Assembly: GCA_017651315.1 (NCBI GenBank)
Contig: JAGCDE010000030.1
Coordinates: forward strand, 62,001 to 126,000
Origin: Bacteroidaceae bacterium
GTDB lineage: Bacteria > Bacteroidota > Bacteroidia > Bacteroidales > Bacteroidaceae
Direction of reading: 5' to 3'
Length of the DNA: 64,000 nucleotides
This document shows positions 26,335-60,023 of this stretch, in pieces. Below the pieces are notes generated by a model. That model saw only the letters and a program-made list of their open reading frames with translations, searched no databases and was not told the origin of the DNA. The translations under genes were made by a program, and so were the position numbers. Positions within the stretch are counted from its first letter, which is position 1. Each line of letters starts with the position of its first letter.

Positions 26335-26341
26335 CTCCCTG

Positions 26342-26423
26342 TACGGGCGATAGGACTTGAACCTACACATCGTGAGATACCAGATCCTAAGTCTGGCGCG
26401 TCTGCCAATTCCGCCACGCCCGC
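26342..26423 (-). tRNA. tRNA-Leu (anticodon TAG)
   Basis: The minus strand folds as a class II tRNA: acceptor GCGGGCG with CGCCCGT (a G1-U72 pair) and discriminator A, D-arm with TGGCGGAATTGGCAGACGC, anticodon stem CCAGA/TCTGG around loop CTTAGGA giving anticodon TAG, a variable arm, and T-arm with GTTCAAGTC. The 3' CCA is not encoded. It has its own promoter (26457-26488) and terminator. Confidence 0.95.
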
Positions 26424-51641: not shown

Positions 51642-51670
51642 TATAAATCAATTATTTATTGTTTAATTTG

Positions 51671-51742
51671 TAGCGCGTATGAGAGTCGAACTCATCTTGC
51701 AAGAATGAAAATCTTGAGTACTAGCCGATATACGAACGCGCC
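51671..51742 (-). tRNA. tRNA-Glu (anticodon TTC)
   Basis: The minus strand forms a 72-base cloverleaf: acceptor GGCGCGT with ACGCGCT (G1-U72) and discriminator A, D-stem GTAT/GTAC with GG in the loop, anticodon stem CAAGA/TCTTG around TTTTCAT (anticodon TTC), and T-stem ATGAG/CTCAT with TTCGACT. CCA is not encoded. It heads a transcript with rpsT. Confidence 0.95.
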
Positions 51743-55465: not shown

Positions 55466-56200
55466 TTATCGTTTCTTGCATACTACCTGATTCTCATAAG
55501 CCACACTGACAGAGCTATATTTGTTCCACCCTATCCTGGACAGTCCTGTCTCATAGAAAGAGTATAGCCTTTCGAGTTTGGTATCCGCATTCTCAGCCGA
55601 ACCGAGTATCAGAAGATGTCCGCCTACACGCGGGACCAGTTCTATCTGACGGTCCTTGTTCACATTAATCTGGACTACCTGCGCCCTCCAGAAATCGGAA
55701 CGGTCAATAGCCAGAACCACCCTTCTCAGGTCATCGGCGGCAAACTTGCGGTCTATATACCCTGTAGCCACCGGCAGATGAAGTGACAGCATCCTGTTAG
55801 TCAGGATATCACCTTTGCTATCCACATAGTAGTCCTCCCCACTGTTGCTGCGCACCCTGAGCAGAGGAGTCTTGCCATATACAATTATCTTCACCTTGCC
55901 GCCCGAAGTCTTGTAACATTGGGCAGACTCTATCAGCGGATAGTGTGAAAGCATCTCCTCCATGGCCTTTGTATCGACCGATGCCAACGCCACCCCTTCC
56001 GGATCCATGCCTTCAGAGTCGAGCAAGCCAAGGATCATTTCACTGTCAACCAGCGAAATGTCCGAGCTGTCCTTCAAAACGATCTCAACCCCTTTGCACA
56101 GACGGGTATCCTCATGGCTTCCTGACATGAACATCATGGAGAAAACCAGATAACCTGTCAGTATCAGAACGGCTGTTATGGAGAGAATCTTCTTCATCAC
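55466..56200 (-). CDS. ftsQ: cell division protein FtsQ
   Basis: FtsQ is a single-pass inner-membrane divisome protein with a periplasmic POTRA domain. The 244-residue protein has one N-terminal membrane segment (ILSITAVLILTGYLVFSMMF), then a POTRA-like region (about 65-115, with PLIESAQCYKTSGGKVKIIVYGKTPLLRV) and a beta domain (about 120-220). Its start overlaps the murG-murC fusion stop by four bases, so it is coupled to cell-wall synthesis. Confidence 0.88.
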   Translation of the reverse strand: MMKKILSITAVLILTGYLVFSMMFMSGSHEDTRLCKGVEIVLKDSSDISLVDSEMILGLLDSEGMDPEGVALASVDTKAMEEMLSHYPLIESAQCYKTSGGKVKIIVYGKTPLLRVRSNSGEDYYVDSKGDILTNRMLSLHLPVATGYIDRKFAADDLRRVVLAIDRSDFWRAQVVQINVNKDRQIELVPRVGGHLLILGSAENADTKLERLYSFYETGLSRIGWNKYSSVSVAYENQVVCKKR

Positions 56201-58719
56201 TTTGTCTCGAGTATTGCGGTTATCCTGTCAGCATAATCCTCCAGGTCGCCCGCTCCGACAGTCACAAGCACCTGGATATCGTCCTTCATGGAACGGACAA
56301 GTTCCTCCACACGGTCCTTGGCGACAATCCCCTTGCAGACTCCAGGTTTCATATTGTCGGCTATCAGGCTGCTTGATACGCCAGGCAAAGGTTCCTCGCG
56401 TGCGGGATATATTTCAGTGAGCCACACCTCATCGAAAAGCGACAGGCTCTCTGCAAACTCGTTGTAGAAATCCCTTGTCCTGGAGTAGAGATGCGGCTGG
56501 AATATTGCGGTAATCCGGCGGCCATCATACAGTTTCCGGAGTGAAAGCGCACACTGTCTGAGCTCTGCCGGATGATGCGCATAGTCTGTCAGGAAGACCT
56601 TTTCGCCCTTGAGCCTGAAGTCGAATCTGCGGTCACACCCCCTGAAACTCTTCATTGCCTCACGAATCACCTTGTCTTCGGCACCGCTCAGCTGGGCCAA
56701 TGCAATCGCGGCCACAGCATTCTCCACATTCACGGGAACAGGCACTCCAAGCTCTATGTCCGATATACACCCTAACGGTGAAATAAGGTCGAATCTGAGC
56801 TCCCCATCCTTTATCTTAATACCGGAAGCATGGAAGTCGCCCTTCTCAACTCCGTATGTATAGAGCGACACCCCATCCTGCAGGTCGGGCTTGAATGTCT
56901 CCTCAAGCGAGCTGTTCAACACCAATGCGCCACCCGGTTTTATCAGTGAGGTATATTTCCTGAAACTCTCCACATAATTCCCATAAGTACCGTAAATGTC
57001 CAGATGGTCTGCGTCAATGGCCGTAATCACACTCCTCAATGGCCTCAAATGGTGGAAAGAACGGTCATATTCATCGGCTTCTATGACCACATACCTGCTG
57101 GCGGGACTCGTCAGGAGGTTACTGTTGTAGTTCTTGAGGATACCGCCAAGAAAAGCATTGCAGCCATCTGGCATCCCATGCATAATATGTGCGGTCATGG
57201 CCGATGTCGTGGTCTTTCCGTGGGTTCCCGCCACACACAGTCCGTCTAAGCTGCGTGTCAGCGTCCCGAGGACCTGTGCACGTTTCTGCACGTCAAAACC
57301 GTTGCTCCGGAACCACCTGAGTTCCCTGTTGTCCGATGGTTTTATGGCCGGGGTATAGACAACGAGTGTCTTTTCCCTCTCCTTGAATCCTTCAGGAATC
57401 AGATTCAGGTTATCCTCAAAATGAATCAAGGCCCCTTCGGTCATCAGTTCCGATGTCAGCTCCGTGGGAGTACGGTCATAGCCTGCTACCGCACATCCGC
57501 GCGAAAGGAAATAACGCTCAAGCGCACTCATCCCTATCCCTCCGGCACCTATGAAATAGACAGACTTTATATCCTGCAGGTCCACCTTTCCGGTTTTGAA
57601 ACCTGCCAGGTCAAGCACTTCACGGGCGATAGTCACTGCCGAATCGTCAATTCCAAGTTTGAGAATATTCTCCCTGAGCGACTTAAGCCTGTCCTTGTCC
57701 TTCACCAGATCCACGGCGGCAGGAATCAGTTCCTTTCCGGCATCTGCATCGGCTATATGGACTGCGGCATTCTTGTCGGCAAGTGCCATGGCGTTCCTGG
57801 TCTGATGGTCCTCAGCCACATTAGGTGAGGGCACCAGTATCACCGCCTTGCCCAACAGACAGAGTTCAGAGATGGTTCCTGCACCGGCACGTGAAATCAC
57901 CAGGTCTGCGGCAGCATACGCCACATCCATGTCCTGGACGAAATCCGTCGGAAACAGGTTGCGGACAGGAACCGTACCGGACAGCCGCTTCTTCATCTCG
58001 TCGAAATAGTACTTGCCTGTCTGCCAAACGAACTGGATATCATCTGACATGCGTATCAGTTCCAGATTGCCCATAACGCTCTCGTTCAAAGAGCGCGCTC
58101 CCAGACTTCCGCCGATAATAAGTATTATCCGCTTGGCGGGATCAAGTCCCATACTGCGTGCAGCCTGATCCCTGTCTGTCATGTTTTCCGTCAGGCTGGG
58201 ACGCACGGGATTACCCGTCAGCAGAATCTTGTCCGCAGGAAAGAACCGCTCCATTCCATCGTACGCCACACAAATCCTGCGTGCTTTCTTCGCCAGTATC
58301 TTGTTAGTTACACCGGCGTATGAGTTCTGTTCCTGGAGCAGGGTGGGCACCCCCATCCTTCCGGCCATCCTCAAGGTCGGTCCGCTTGCATATCCGCCCA
58401 CGCCCACAGCAACCATAGGCTTGAACTCCCTTATAATCCTGCGGGCCATCCTCTGGCTGTGCATTATCTTGAAGAGCACCGATATATTCTTCAGAGGATT
58501 CTTCCTGTCAAAACCGCATATAGGCAGTCCTTTTATTTCAAACCCGGCAGCAGGAACACGCTGCATCTCCATCCTGCCTTCCGCACCCACAAACAGGATT
58601 TCAGCTTCCGGACAGAGAGATTTCACAGCGAGGGCTATCGAAACAGCGGGAAAGATATGTCCCCCCGTTCCTCCTCCGCTGATAATTATACGCGGTCTCT
58701 TATCATTCTCCTTATCCAT
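56197..58719 (-). CDS. murG-murC: MurG-MurC fusion: UDP-GlcNAc transferase and UDP-MurNAc--L-Ala ligase in one reading frame
   Basis: One uninterrupted 840-codon frame holds two complete enzymes that are separate genes in most bacteria. Residues 1 to about 374 are MurG: glycine loop GGGTGGH (15-21), GGSLGAR (203-209), RAGAGTISE (277-285) and HQTRNA (305-310); it adds GlcNAc to lipid I. Residues about 379-840 are MurC: SVYFIGAGGIGMS (386-398), ATP loop GTHGKTTT (498-505), and HHPAEL (715-720); it adds L-Ala to UDP-MurNAc. The join is short, with no stop, at residues 375-379 (KTGKV); codon 379 is GTG (57585-57583), where a separate murC might once have begun or might still start. Both halves keep normal length. 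It follows ftsW by 14 bases and overlaps ftsQ by four. Confidence 0.9.
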   Translation of the reverse strand: MDKENDKRPRIIISGGGTGGHIFPAVSIALAVKSLCPEAEILFVGAEGRMEMQRVPAAGFEIKGLPICGFDRKNPLKNISVLFKIMHSQRMARRIIREFKPMVAVGVGGYASGPTLRMAGRMGVPTLLQEQNSYAGVTNKILAKKARRICVAYDGMERFFPADKILLTGNPVRPSLTENMTDRDQAARSMGLDPAKRIILIIGGSLGARSLNESVMGNLELIRMSDDIQFVWQTGKYYFDEMKKRLSGTVPVRNLFPTDFVQDMDVAYAAADLVISRAGAGTISELCLLGKAVILVPSPNVAEDHQTRNAMALADKNAAVHIADADAGKELIPAAVDLVKDKDRLKSLRENILKLGIDDSAVTIAREVLDLAGFKTGKVDLQDIKSVYFIGAGGIGMSALERYFLSRGCAVAGYDRTPTELTSELMTEGALIHFEDNLNLIPEGFKEREKTLVVYTPAIKPSDNRELRWFRSNGFDVQKRAQVLGTLTRSLDGLCVAGTHGKTTTSAMTAHIMHGMPDGCNAFLGGILKNYNSNLLTSPASRYVVIEADEYDRSFHHLRPLRSVITAIDADHLDIYGTYGNYVESFRKYTSLIKPGGALVLNSSLEETFKPDLQDGVSLYTYGVEKGDFHASGIKIKDGELRFDLISPLGCISDIELGVPVPVNVENAVAAIALAQLSGAEDKVIREAMKSFRGCDRRFDFRLKGEKVFLTDYAHHPAELRQCALSLRKLYDGRRITAIFQPHLYSRTRDFYNEFAESLSLFDEVWLTEIYPAREEPLPGVSSSLIADNMKPGVCKGIVAKDRVEELVRSMKDDIQVLVTVGAGDLEDYADRITAILETK

Positions 58720-58733
58720 TGTCTAATATAGGA

Positions 58734-60023
58734 TTAAATATCATCAACCATTTCATTCCCCGTATCTCCATCCACCTCTTCCATCCTGACAGGTTCATCG
58801 GCAGGCAGATGGTTCTCCTCCGCGGCCTCCCTGTCAAGCGTATTGCTTATGCCAATAAGCATCCCTATCGAGAAGCTTGCCATAAGTACCGATGTGCCGC
58901 CCTTACTGATAAGAGGCAACGGCTGTCCCGTTACCGGAAAAAGCCCTACAGCCACGGACATGTTTATGAAAGCCTGCAACCCCAGCATCATCCCGAGCCC
59001 CATGGCGAGGAATGCCGGATACTTGTCGGTACACCTCATGGCAATCTTCCCTATCCTGAACAGCAGGACTATATAGACAATAAGGACAAATATGGCACCC
59101 ACCATACCCAGTTCCTCTATAATGATGGCATATATGAAGTCACAGCTGGCCTCCTGAAGATAATCGCGCTCATAGGAATTTCCAGGCCCCTTGCCAAGAA
59201 AATGGCTGGATGCTATCGCTATATTGGCATGGGTCTCCTGAGGCTTCTCAGGAGCTGTGTTCCTCGCATACTCGTAGGCCGTCTCCTTGGATTCAGAGCC
59301 TGAGTTAGTAAAATCCAGTATCCTCGCCTGCCAAGTCAGAGCTCTCTCGGGAATGAAACGTGAATCACCCAGAGTCTTGGGCGGCACAAGTACCAGGAGC
59401 AGCACCGCAGTCAGGCCTATAGCAAACAGCACCCCGGTGAGCCCCAGCATCCTGCGCCAAGAGATTCCACCCAGAATCATCATTATATAGACCACAGCGC
59501 CAAGCAATATGGCTGTGGAAAGGTTCTCCGTGAATATAAGCATACAGAAAGCTCCTGTCACCACAAGAATCTTCATGAAGACATTGGACTGGCTCTGCTC
59601 ATCGTCTGGCTTGAGTTTGGCCAGCAAGGCTGCGACAGTCATCACGGCTGCCACCTTGCCGAGCTCCGAAGGCTGAAGCTTGAAGAAACCCAGGTCAATC
59701 CACCGTTCGGCTCCCGCCGACTGTTTGCTCAGGAATGAGAGGTAAGCCAGAAGAGCCAGAGAAACAGGCACCAGCAGAACCGGGAACAACTTATACCATC
59801 TGTAATGGAGAAGATGAAGCACATACATCACCACTATACCCATACCGAGATGTATCACATGCGACAGTATGGGAGTAAGAAAACTGCTCTTACCGAACGT
59901 GAGGCGGCTGCTTGCGCTGAACACCTCCACAAGGGATATACTGCAGAGAAGAAGCACTGATATCCATATATATATGTCACCCCTGAATAGAGGCCCCTTA
60001 ATCTTGTCTTTTGCTGGTTCCAT
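58734..60023 (-). CDS. ftsW: lipid II polymerase FtsW (SEDS family)
   Basis: FtsW polymerises lipid II at the septum with a partner penicillin-binding protein. The 429-residue protein has ten or so membrane segments and the SEDS motifs: GAERWIDLGFFKLQPSELGK, the extracellular loop with the conserved Asp region, and the C-terminal GQPLPLISKGGTSVLM. The hydrophilic C-terminal tail (about 400-429) is acidic. It lies between murD (15-base gap) and murG-murC (14-base gap) in the normal dcw order. Confidence 0.95.
   Translation of the reverse strand: MEPAKDKIKGPLFRGDIYIWISVLLLCSISLVEVFSASSRLTFGKSSFLTPILSHVIHLGMGIVVMYVLHLLHYRWYKLFPVLLVPVSLALLAYLSFLSKQSAGAERWIDLGFFKLQPSELGKVAAVMTVAALLAKLKPDDEQSQSNVFMKILVVTGAFCMLIFTENLSTAILLGAVVYIMMILGGISWRRMLGLTGVLFAIGLTAVLLLVLVPPKTLGDSRFIPERALTWQARILDFTNSGSESKETAYEYARNTAPEKPQETHANIAIASSHFLGKGPGNSYERDYLQEASCDFIYAIIIEELGMVGAIFVLIVYIVLLFRIGKIAMRCTDKYPAFLAMGLGMMLGLQAFINMSVAVGLFPVTGQPLPLISKGGTSVLMASFSIGMLIGISNTLDREAAEENHLPADEPVRMEEVDGDTGNEMVDDI

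Follow-up and report, generated by a model that had tools for sequence, protein, structure and literature searches.

We identified murG and murC joined in a single uninterrupted reading frame of 840 codons in a genome of the Bacteroidaceae, within the stretch of 64,000 nucleotides analysed here (the window). A first-pass annotation of the sequence had described this frame, and it is borne out by five Pfam domains scoring above their cut-offs and by the presence of the joined frame in 31 of 37 species of the genus. The comparative data suggest that the gene encodes a single bifunctional MurG-MurC enzyme, in which MurC would be held by membrane-bound MurG at a 1:1 ratio, a reading to which we assign a probability of roughly 0.6.

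Structure of the fused gene

The fused gene and its direct neighbours all lie on the minus strand:

58734..60023, minus strand: ftsW, a separate gene, upstream neighbour (247.1 bits, below the cut-off of 337.5)
56197..58719, minus strand: murG-murC fusion gene of 840 codons and a stop, beginning with ATG at 58719
57604..58719, minus strand: MurG half, residues 1-372 (PF03033 and PF04101; TIGR01133)
57574..57603, minus strand: linker GFKTGKVDLQ, residues 373-382, between the MurG and MurC halves
57583..57585, minus strand: GTG codon 379, at the site of the MurC start codon in relatives with separate genes
56200..57573, minus strand: MurC half, residues 383-840 (PF01225, PF08245 and PF02875; TIGR01082)
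55466..56200, minus strand: ftsQ-like gene, downstream neighbour, named by its position in the cluster; it begins with a GTG that overlaps the stop of murC, and it has no NCBIfam match

The order of the cluster is presumably murE-mraY-murD-ftsW-(murG-murC)-ftsQ-ftsA-ftsZ, in which all names except ftsW, murG and murC are assigned from position. No stop codon interrupts the frame between the ATG at 58719 and the stop at 56197-56199, and the plus-strand frame that was read contains stops, the first-pass annotation having named no strand. The encoded protein shows PF03033 (residues 11-150) and PF04101 (198-351) in the MurG half and PF01225 (387-489), PF08245 (496-675) and PF02875 (697-813) in the MurC half. 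The two halves are joined by 10 residues rather than the about five given in the first-pass annotation, which had placed the GTG at codon 379 correctly.

The MurG half belongs to TIGR01133 with 271.8 bits against a cut-off of 250.25 (residues 9-366, model positions 6-351 of 353). The MurC half covers positions 2-446 of the 449 of TIGR01082 and reaches 325.2 bits, below the cut-off of 335.1. This shortfall is unrelated to the fusion, since separate and fused MurC sequences both fall on either side of the cut-off: among four separate MurC, G011 (306.4) and L108 (328) score below and L106 (343.1) and L116 (357.6) above, and among three further fused MurC, L099 (321.7) and L020 (327.7) score below and L031 (346.3) above. 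The best relatives of the window protein among solved structures are MurC (1.1e-67) and MurG (6.6e-48). In its own genome the fused query finds one full-length location. A second copy of murG or murC was rejected, the sole extra match lying inside murD (24% identity, 1.1e-9), in a draft in which a copy could be missed.

Distribution and origin of the fusion within the genus

Among the 37 species sampled in the genus, the own genome of the window included, the 31 fused ones carry the joined frame at 67-100% identity, and six (G011, G014, G015, G016, G021 and G023) have separate genes with murC out of frame with murG. In these six the matched part of murC starts 1-26 nt past the murG stop. The first-pass annotation had described two separate genes in the dcw cluster of Bacteroides and had named separate genes in all related genomes as an outcome speaking against a fusion; separate genes do occur in the genus, in only 6 of the 37 species. 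Each of the 31 fused genomes gives one match at E <= 1e-20, all being drafts in which a copy could be missed. A TAA is shown in two of the 31 fused rows, neither at the junction: the checked frame of G026 is free of stops, and the TAA of G028 marks the end of the gene, being codon 457 of a MurC match 458 codons long.

Outside the genus all loci of the window's family that were checked have separate genes. In a scan of 251 genomes of the wider family, all full-length joined rows outside the genus carry a stop among the matches listed, sorted by score, and all 22 loci of the family outside the genus that were checked directly (17 plus 5 doubtful) are separate. Long open-frame values beside family rows matching only murC were considered as extra fusions and rejected, as these five doubtful loci all have a stop after murG.

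A tree of MurG and MurC places 29 of the fused species in one clade at 100/100, whereas all 31 are held together at only 49/46, the ambiguous placement of G008 and G013 allowing one or two origins. In a tree of six neighbouring genes (mraY, murD, ftsW, ftsQ, ftsA and ftsZ) the 31 fused species form one clade with an SH-aLRT value of 98, obtained by a quick method without bootstrap and with a long-branch warning, long branches meeting there. Taken together, the two trees favour one fusion without later split, and the genes probably fused once, in the ancestor of the 31 species, and stayed fused among all species sampled.

Purifying selection, linker and internal start codons

Both the MurG and the MurC half are under strong purifying selection. 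Over ten species pairs synonymous changes are many and other changes few, resulting in a pooled pN/pS of 0.09 for MurG and the same value over the initial 230 codons of MurC. The linker has a pooled pN/pS of 0.26 over nine pairs, one pair of unequal length being left out of this set of chosen species pairs. Its length is nearly constant in the 31 fused species (10 codons in 27, 9 in three and 11 in one), and its conservation is 0.65 compared to 0.88 and 0.87 for the halves. Thirteen motif patterns, six of MurG and seven of MurC including the P-loop GTHGKT and DYAHHP, are each present in all 31 fusions of the genus. Some of these patterns, possibly too strict, are less frequent among 20 fused loci from other lineages, i.e. 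GGY[AV]SGP in 14, E[DN]HQ[TY].NA in 15, SRAGA in 17, EQN in 19 and one MurC pattern in 19 of the 20.

The codon homologous to GTG 379 is CTG in seven, CTC in six, CTA in five, CTT in five and GTG in three of the fused species, and in the remaining ones TTT (two), TTG (one), TTA (one) and AAC (one). At the same offset the six separate genes carry ATG in four species, and ATG lies three codons (G014) and one codon (G021) downstream in the others. GTG 379 is thus a relic position and no conserved start, as it aligns with the start of the separate relatives, yet start codons are rare there in the 31 fused species.

Other junctions of the dcw cluster as a control

Most dcw neighbours of murG and murC are membrane proteins, some with ends across the membrane. 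Seven other dcw junctions of the genus are fused in 0 of 258 cases compared to 31 of 37 for murG-murC. The same junctions are fused in 0 of 122 cases in 20 genomes of family f91, hand-picked for both states, of which 11 have murG-murC fused and 9 separate. From the window's family, three additional genomes show 0 of 21 other junctions fused, murG-murC being separate there too. The control covers the genus, f91 and these three family genomes; two f91 murE-mraY pairs that are not adjacent were left out, and pairs extending beyond the fetched stretch are uncounted. Several of the other junctions have spacers as short as that of murG-murC. The control is limited in its reach because just ftsA-ftsZ joins two soluble proteins.

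Recurrence in other families

Fusions are also present in the coded families f91, f96, f51, f86, f169 and f182 and in the metagenome-assembled genome RUG14315, so that with the window's own family the fusion is known from seven coded families. Besides the own genome, a scan of the order (393 genomes) gave full-length frames without stop in G462, G466, G321, G457 and G356, and a scan of the class (395 genomes) gave them in G814, G1016, G933, G803 and, cut off, in G979. A scan of the phylum (296 genomes) gave no fusion beyond the own genome among the matches listed. These counts are lower bounds, as score cut-offs differed and divergent fusions could fall below them.

Frame classification shows 12 of 33 loci fused in f91 (from 32 of 45 genomes searched), 3 of 8 in f169 (17 genomes), 1 of 2 in f96 (3 genomes), 2 of 2 in f86, 2 of 2 in f182 and the single locus of f51; RUG14315 is fused as well, its contig ending within MurC. 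Four loci, each lacking one half, were left out of the frame check (L278 of f96; L289, L290 and L292 of f91), L140 and L230 (G814) represent one locus, counted once, and L159 is truncated by a contig end.

On a tree of 78 chosen rows, built by a quick method and with uneven composition in some rows, the fused and separate states change 13 times, nine of these changes being forced by starred branches. A tree of f91 with seven outgroup rows (40 rows) gives nine changes, five of them forced, and 98 of 500 shuffles are as low; the state is scattered in f91, not clustered. Such change counts do not separate gain from loss. Linkers across the lineages are unlike each other, their lengths spanning about -1 to 27 residues when measured against fixed points, and these differences between lineages favour repeated gain.

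Two f91 linkers are built from repeats. The murG-murC linker of L266 (G1310:C139, 2126-2227) is a translated palindromic repeat with arms of 29 nt at 2135-2163 and 2188-2216 that are 93% complementary, and the linker of L267 (G1294:C10) consists of 72 nt of heptamers resembling TTCACTC or TTCACCC, translated in frame.

Relation to known Mur fusions

Other Mur fusions are known, as the first-pass annotation had correctly stated with MurC-Ddl as its example; they include MurE-MurF, MurB/C and MurC-Ddl. A fusion written murG/murC, joining the same two genes in the dcw cluster, is in print for Cellulomonas gilvus in the legend of Figure 3 of PMC4929429, and MurG/MurC fusions are mentioned also in PMC6420597, a precedent absent from the first-pass annotation. 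The window's gene belongs with the MurG-MurC fusion proteins of PMC4929429, having an uninterrupted frame of MurG followed by MurC. That source names C. gilvus, and other such fusions may have been seen; the likeness is one of description, its passages on the fusion giving no distribution, linker or tree (PMC4929429). Cellulomonas gilvus is an actinomycete, and on the 78-row tree the fusions reported here group with relatives whose genes are separate, which suggests an origin independent of the actinomycete fusion.

MurE-MurF of Bordetella pertussis likewise combines two Mur enzymes in one polypeptide and interacts with MurG as a proposed scaffold, but joins two sequential ligases, whereas MurG and MurC are non-sequential (PMC6420597). 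MurB/C of Verrucomicrobium spinosum joins MurC, with its activity shown, to another Mur enzyme in certain lineages only; its partner MurB catalyses the preceding step, unlike MurG (PMC4803751). In Chlamydia MurC is likewise part of a bifunctional protein, with Ddl as partner (cited in PMC4803751; NF011171). The window protein does not belong to NF011171, scoring 202.7 bits against a cut-off of 1015 through its MurC part only. The literature searched contained no report of a MurG-MurC fusion for Bacteroidetes, and as far as searched three points are new: the retention of the fusion across most of a genus, its presence in six additional families and the comparison with other dcw junctions.

A model for the fused enzyme and its rivals

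We propose a model in which the closely packed murG and murC would have lost the stop and start codons between them through a minor change at their junction and so come to lie in one frame. The product would be a single uncleaved protein with a mass of about 92 kDa and, judging from the draft genome, the only MurG and the only MurC of the cell, with both enzymes acting in their usual way. Through the short linker MurC would be fixed 1:1 beside MurG. The association of MurG with the membrane would bring MurC along, and the first Mur ligase would probably become part of a membrane cluster scaffolded by MurG, with a possible benefit from clustering or from equal dosage. Direct channelling from MurC to MurG was rejected on pathway order: the product of MurC passes MurD, MurE, MurF and MraY before MurG, and with four further enzymes in between direct passage is unlikely, which leaves the UDP-sugar channelling between both active sites proposed in the first-pass annotation a weak idea.

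That MurG may hold MurC at the membrane, as the first-pass annotation had proposed, is plausible. MurG associates with the membrane, and its oligomers bind MurE-MurF and were proposed as a scaffold (PMC6420597). The steps of MurG and MurC are not sequential (PMC6420597, PMC4929429), and such fusions have been taken as pointing to a multi-enzyme complex (PMC4929429). The literature leaves open whether the soluble Mur ligases assemble with MurG into a membrane cluster (PMC4929429, PMC6420597). The presence of the fusion across most of a genus and in several families, with the other dcw junctions tested being separate, provides comparative evidence that both enzymes can work side by side.

The best-surviving rival is a near-neutral accident, according to which a tight pair of genes for soluble proteins tolerated the loss of stop and start and was hard to split again, with no benefit from tethering. 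We consider this rival still strong, falling somewhat short of an even chance. The narrow spacing of the six separate relatives, the differences between the linkers and the scattered state in f91 all speak for it, and it is also fitted by the two repeat-made f91 linkers, which look like tolerated accidents. Retention in the genus may merely reflect that a split needs a new stop as well as a new start. Against it stand the occurrence in seven coded families and the lack of any fusion at the other junctions of the genus and f91, several of them equally tight, albeit with ftsA-ftsZ as the only soluble pair. The further step, that the fusion is selectively favoured in these Bacteroidia as a covalent, MurG-scaffolded Mur cluster linking entry ligase and exit enzyme at the membrane and arising convergently in several families, is a tentative proposal that we hold to be clearly less probable than the single bifunctional enzyme itself. 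If true, each fused lineage would be a natural test of Mur enzymes forming a membrane cluster.

It is improbable that two proteins are made, either by MurC initiating in frame at GTG 379 or by cleavage of the linker. The GTG occupies the site of the start codon of separate relatives, and the linker is less conserved than both halves; on the other side, an in-frame ATG, GTG or TTG occurs anywhere in the linker in only 9 of the 31 fused species and in none of the other 22. As a conserved feature, the separate MurC start at this codon that the first-pass annotation had considered was rejected, the site being GTG in 3, TTG in 1 and ATG in 0 of 31, although in the window's own gene MurC initiation at GTG 379 may occur. 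A sequencing or assembly error that removed a stop, the main alternative of the first-pass annotation and conceivable in a draft of 59 contigs and 83% completeness, is excluded because the assemblies of 30 other species, including G007 (97% complete) and G018 (100%), carry the same joined frame in different codons.

Returning to the single bifunctional enzyme, the fused genes offer natural proteins for probing co-localisation, stoichiometry and inhibitor access, and would represent one target of which both halves are expected to be essential.

Additional observations

In L265 (G1297:C1) of f91 an in-frame palindrome, which we take to recall the Rickettsia palindromic elements, lies in a loop of murC, with arms of 33 nt at 1426-1458 and 1488-1520 that are 94% complementary; the same loop bears inserts of varying sequence in several f91 loci. 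The draft G1310 contains both a separate (L255) and a fused (L266) murG-murC, and as its listed contamination is 6% it may represent two organisms. The murG-murC fusion L140 (VHAX01000025.1) comes from a metagenome-assembled genome titled Sphingomonadales, a title that looks wrong, the match values being equal to those of G814, which is coded in the window's class. Elsewhere in the window the minus strand encodes tRNA-Leu(TAG) at 26341-26423 and tRNA-Glu(TTC) at 51670-51742, which are the sole ARAGORN hits and the sole Rfam hits at the gathering threshold.
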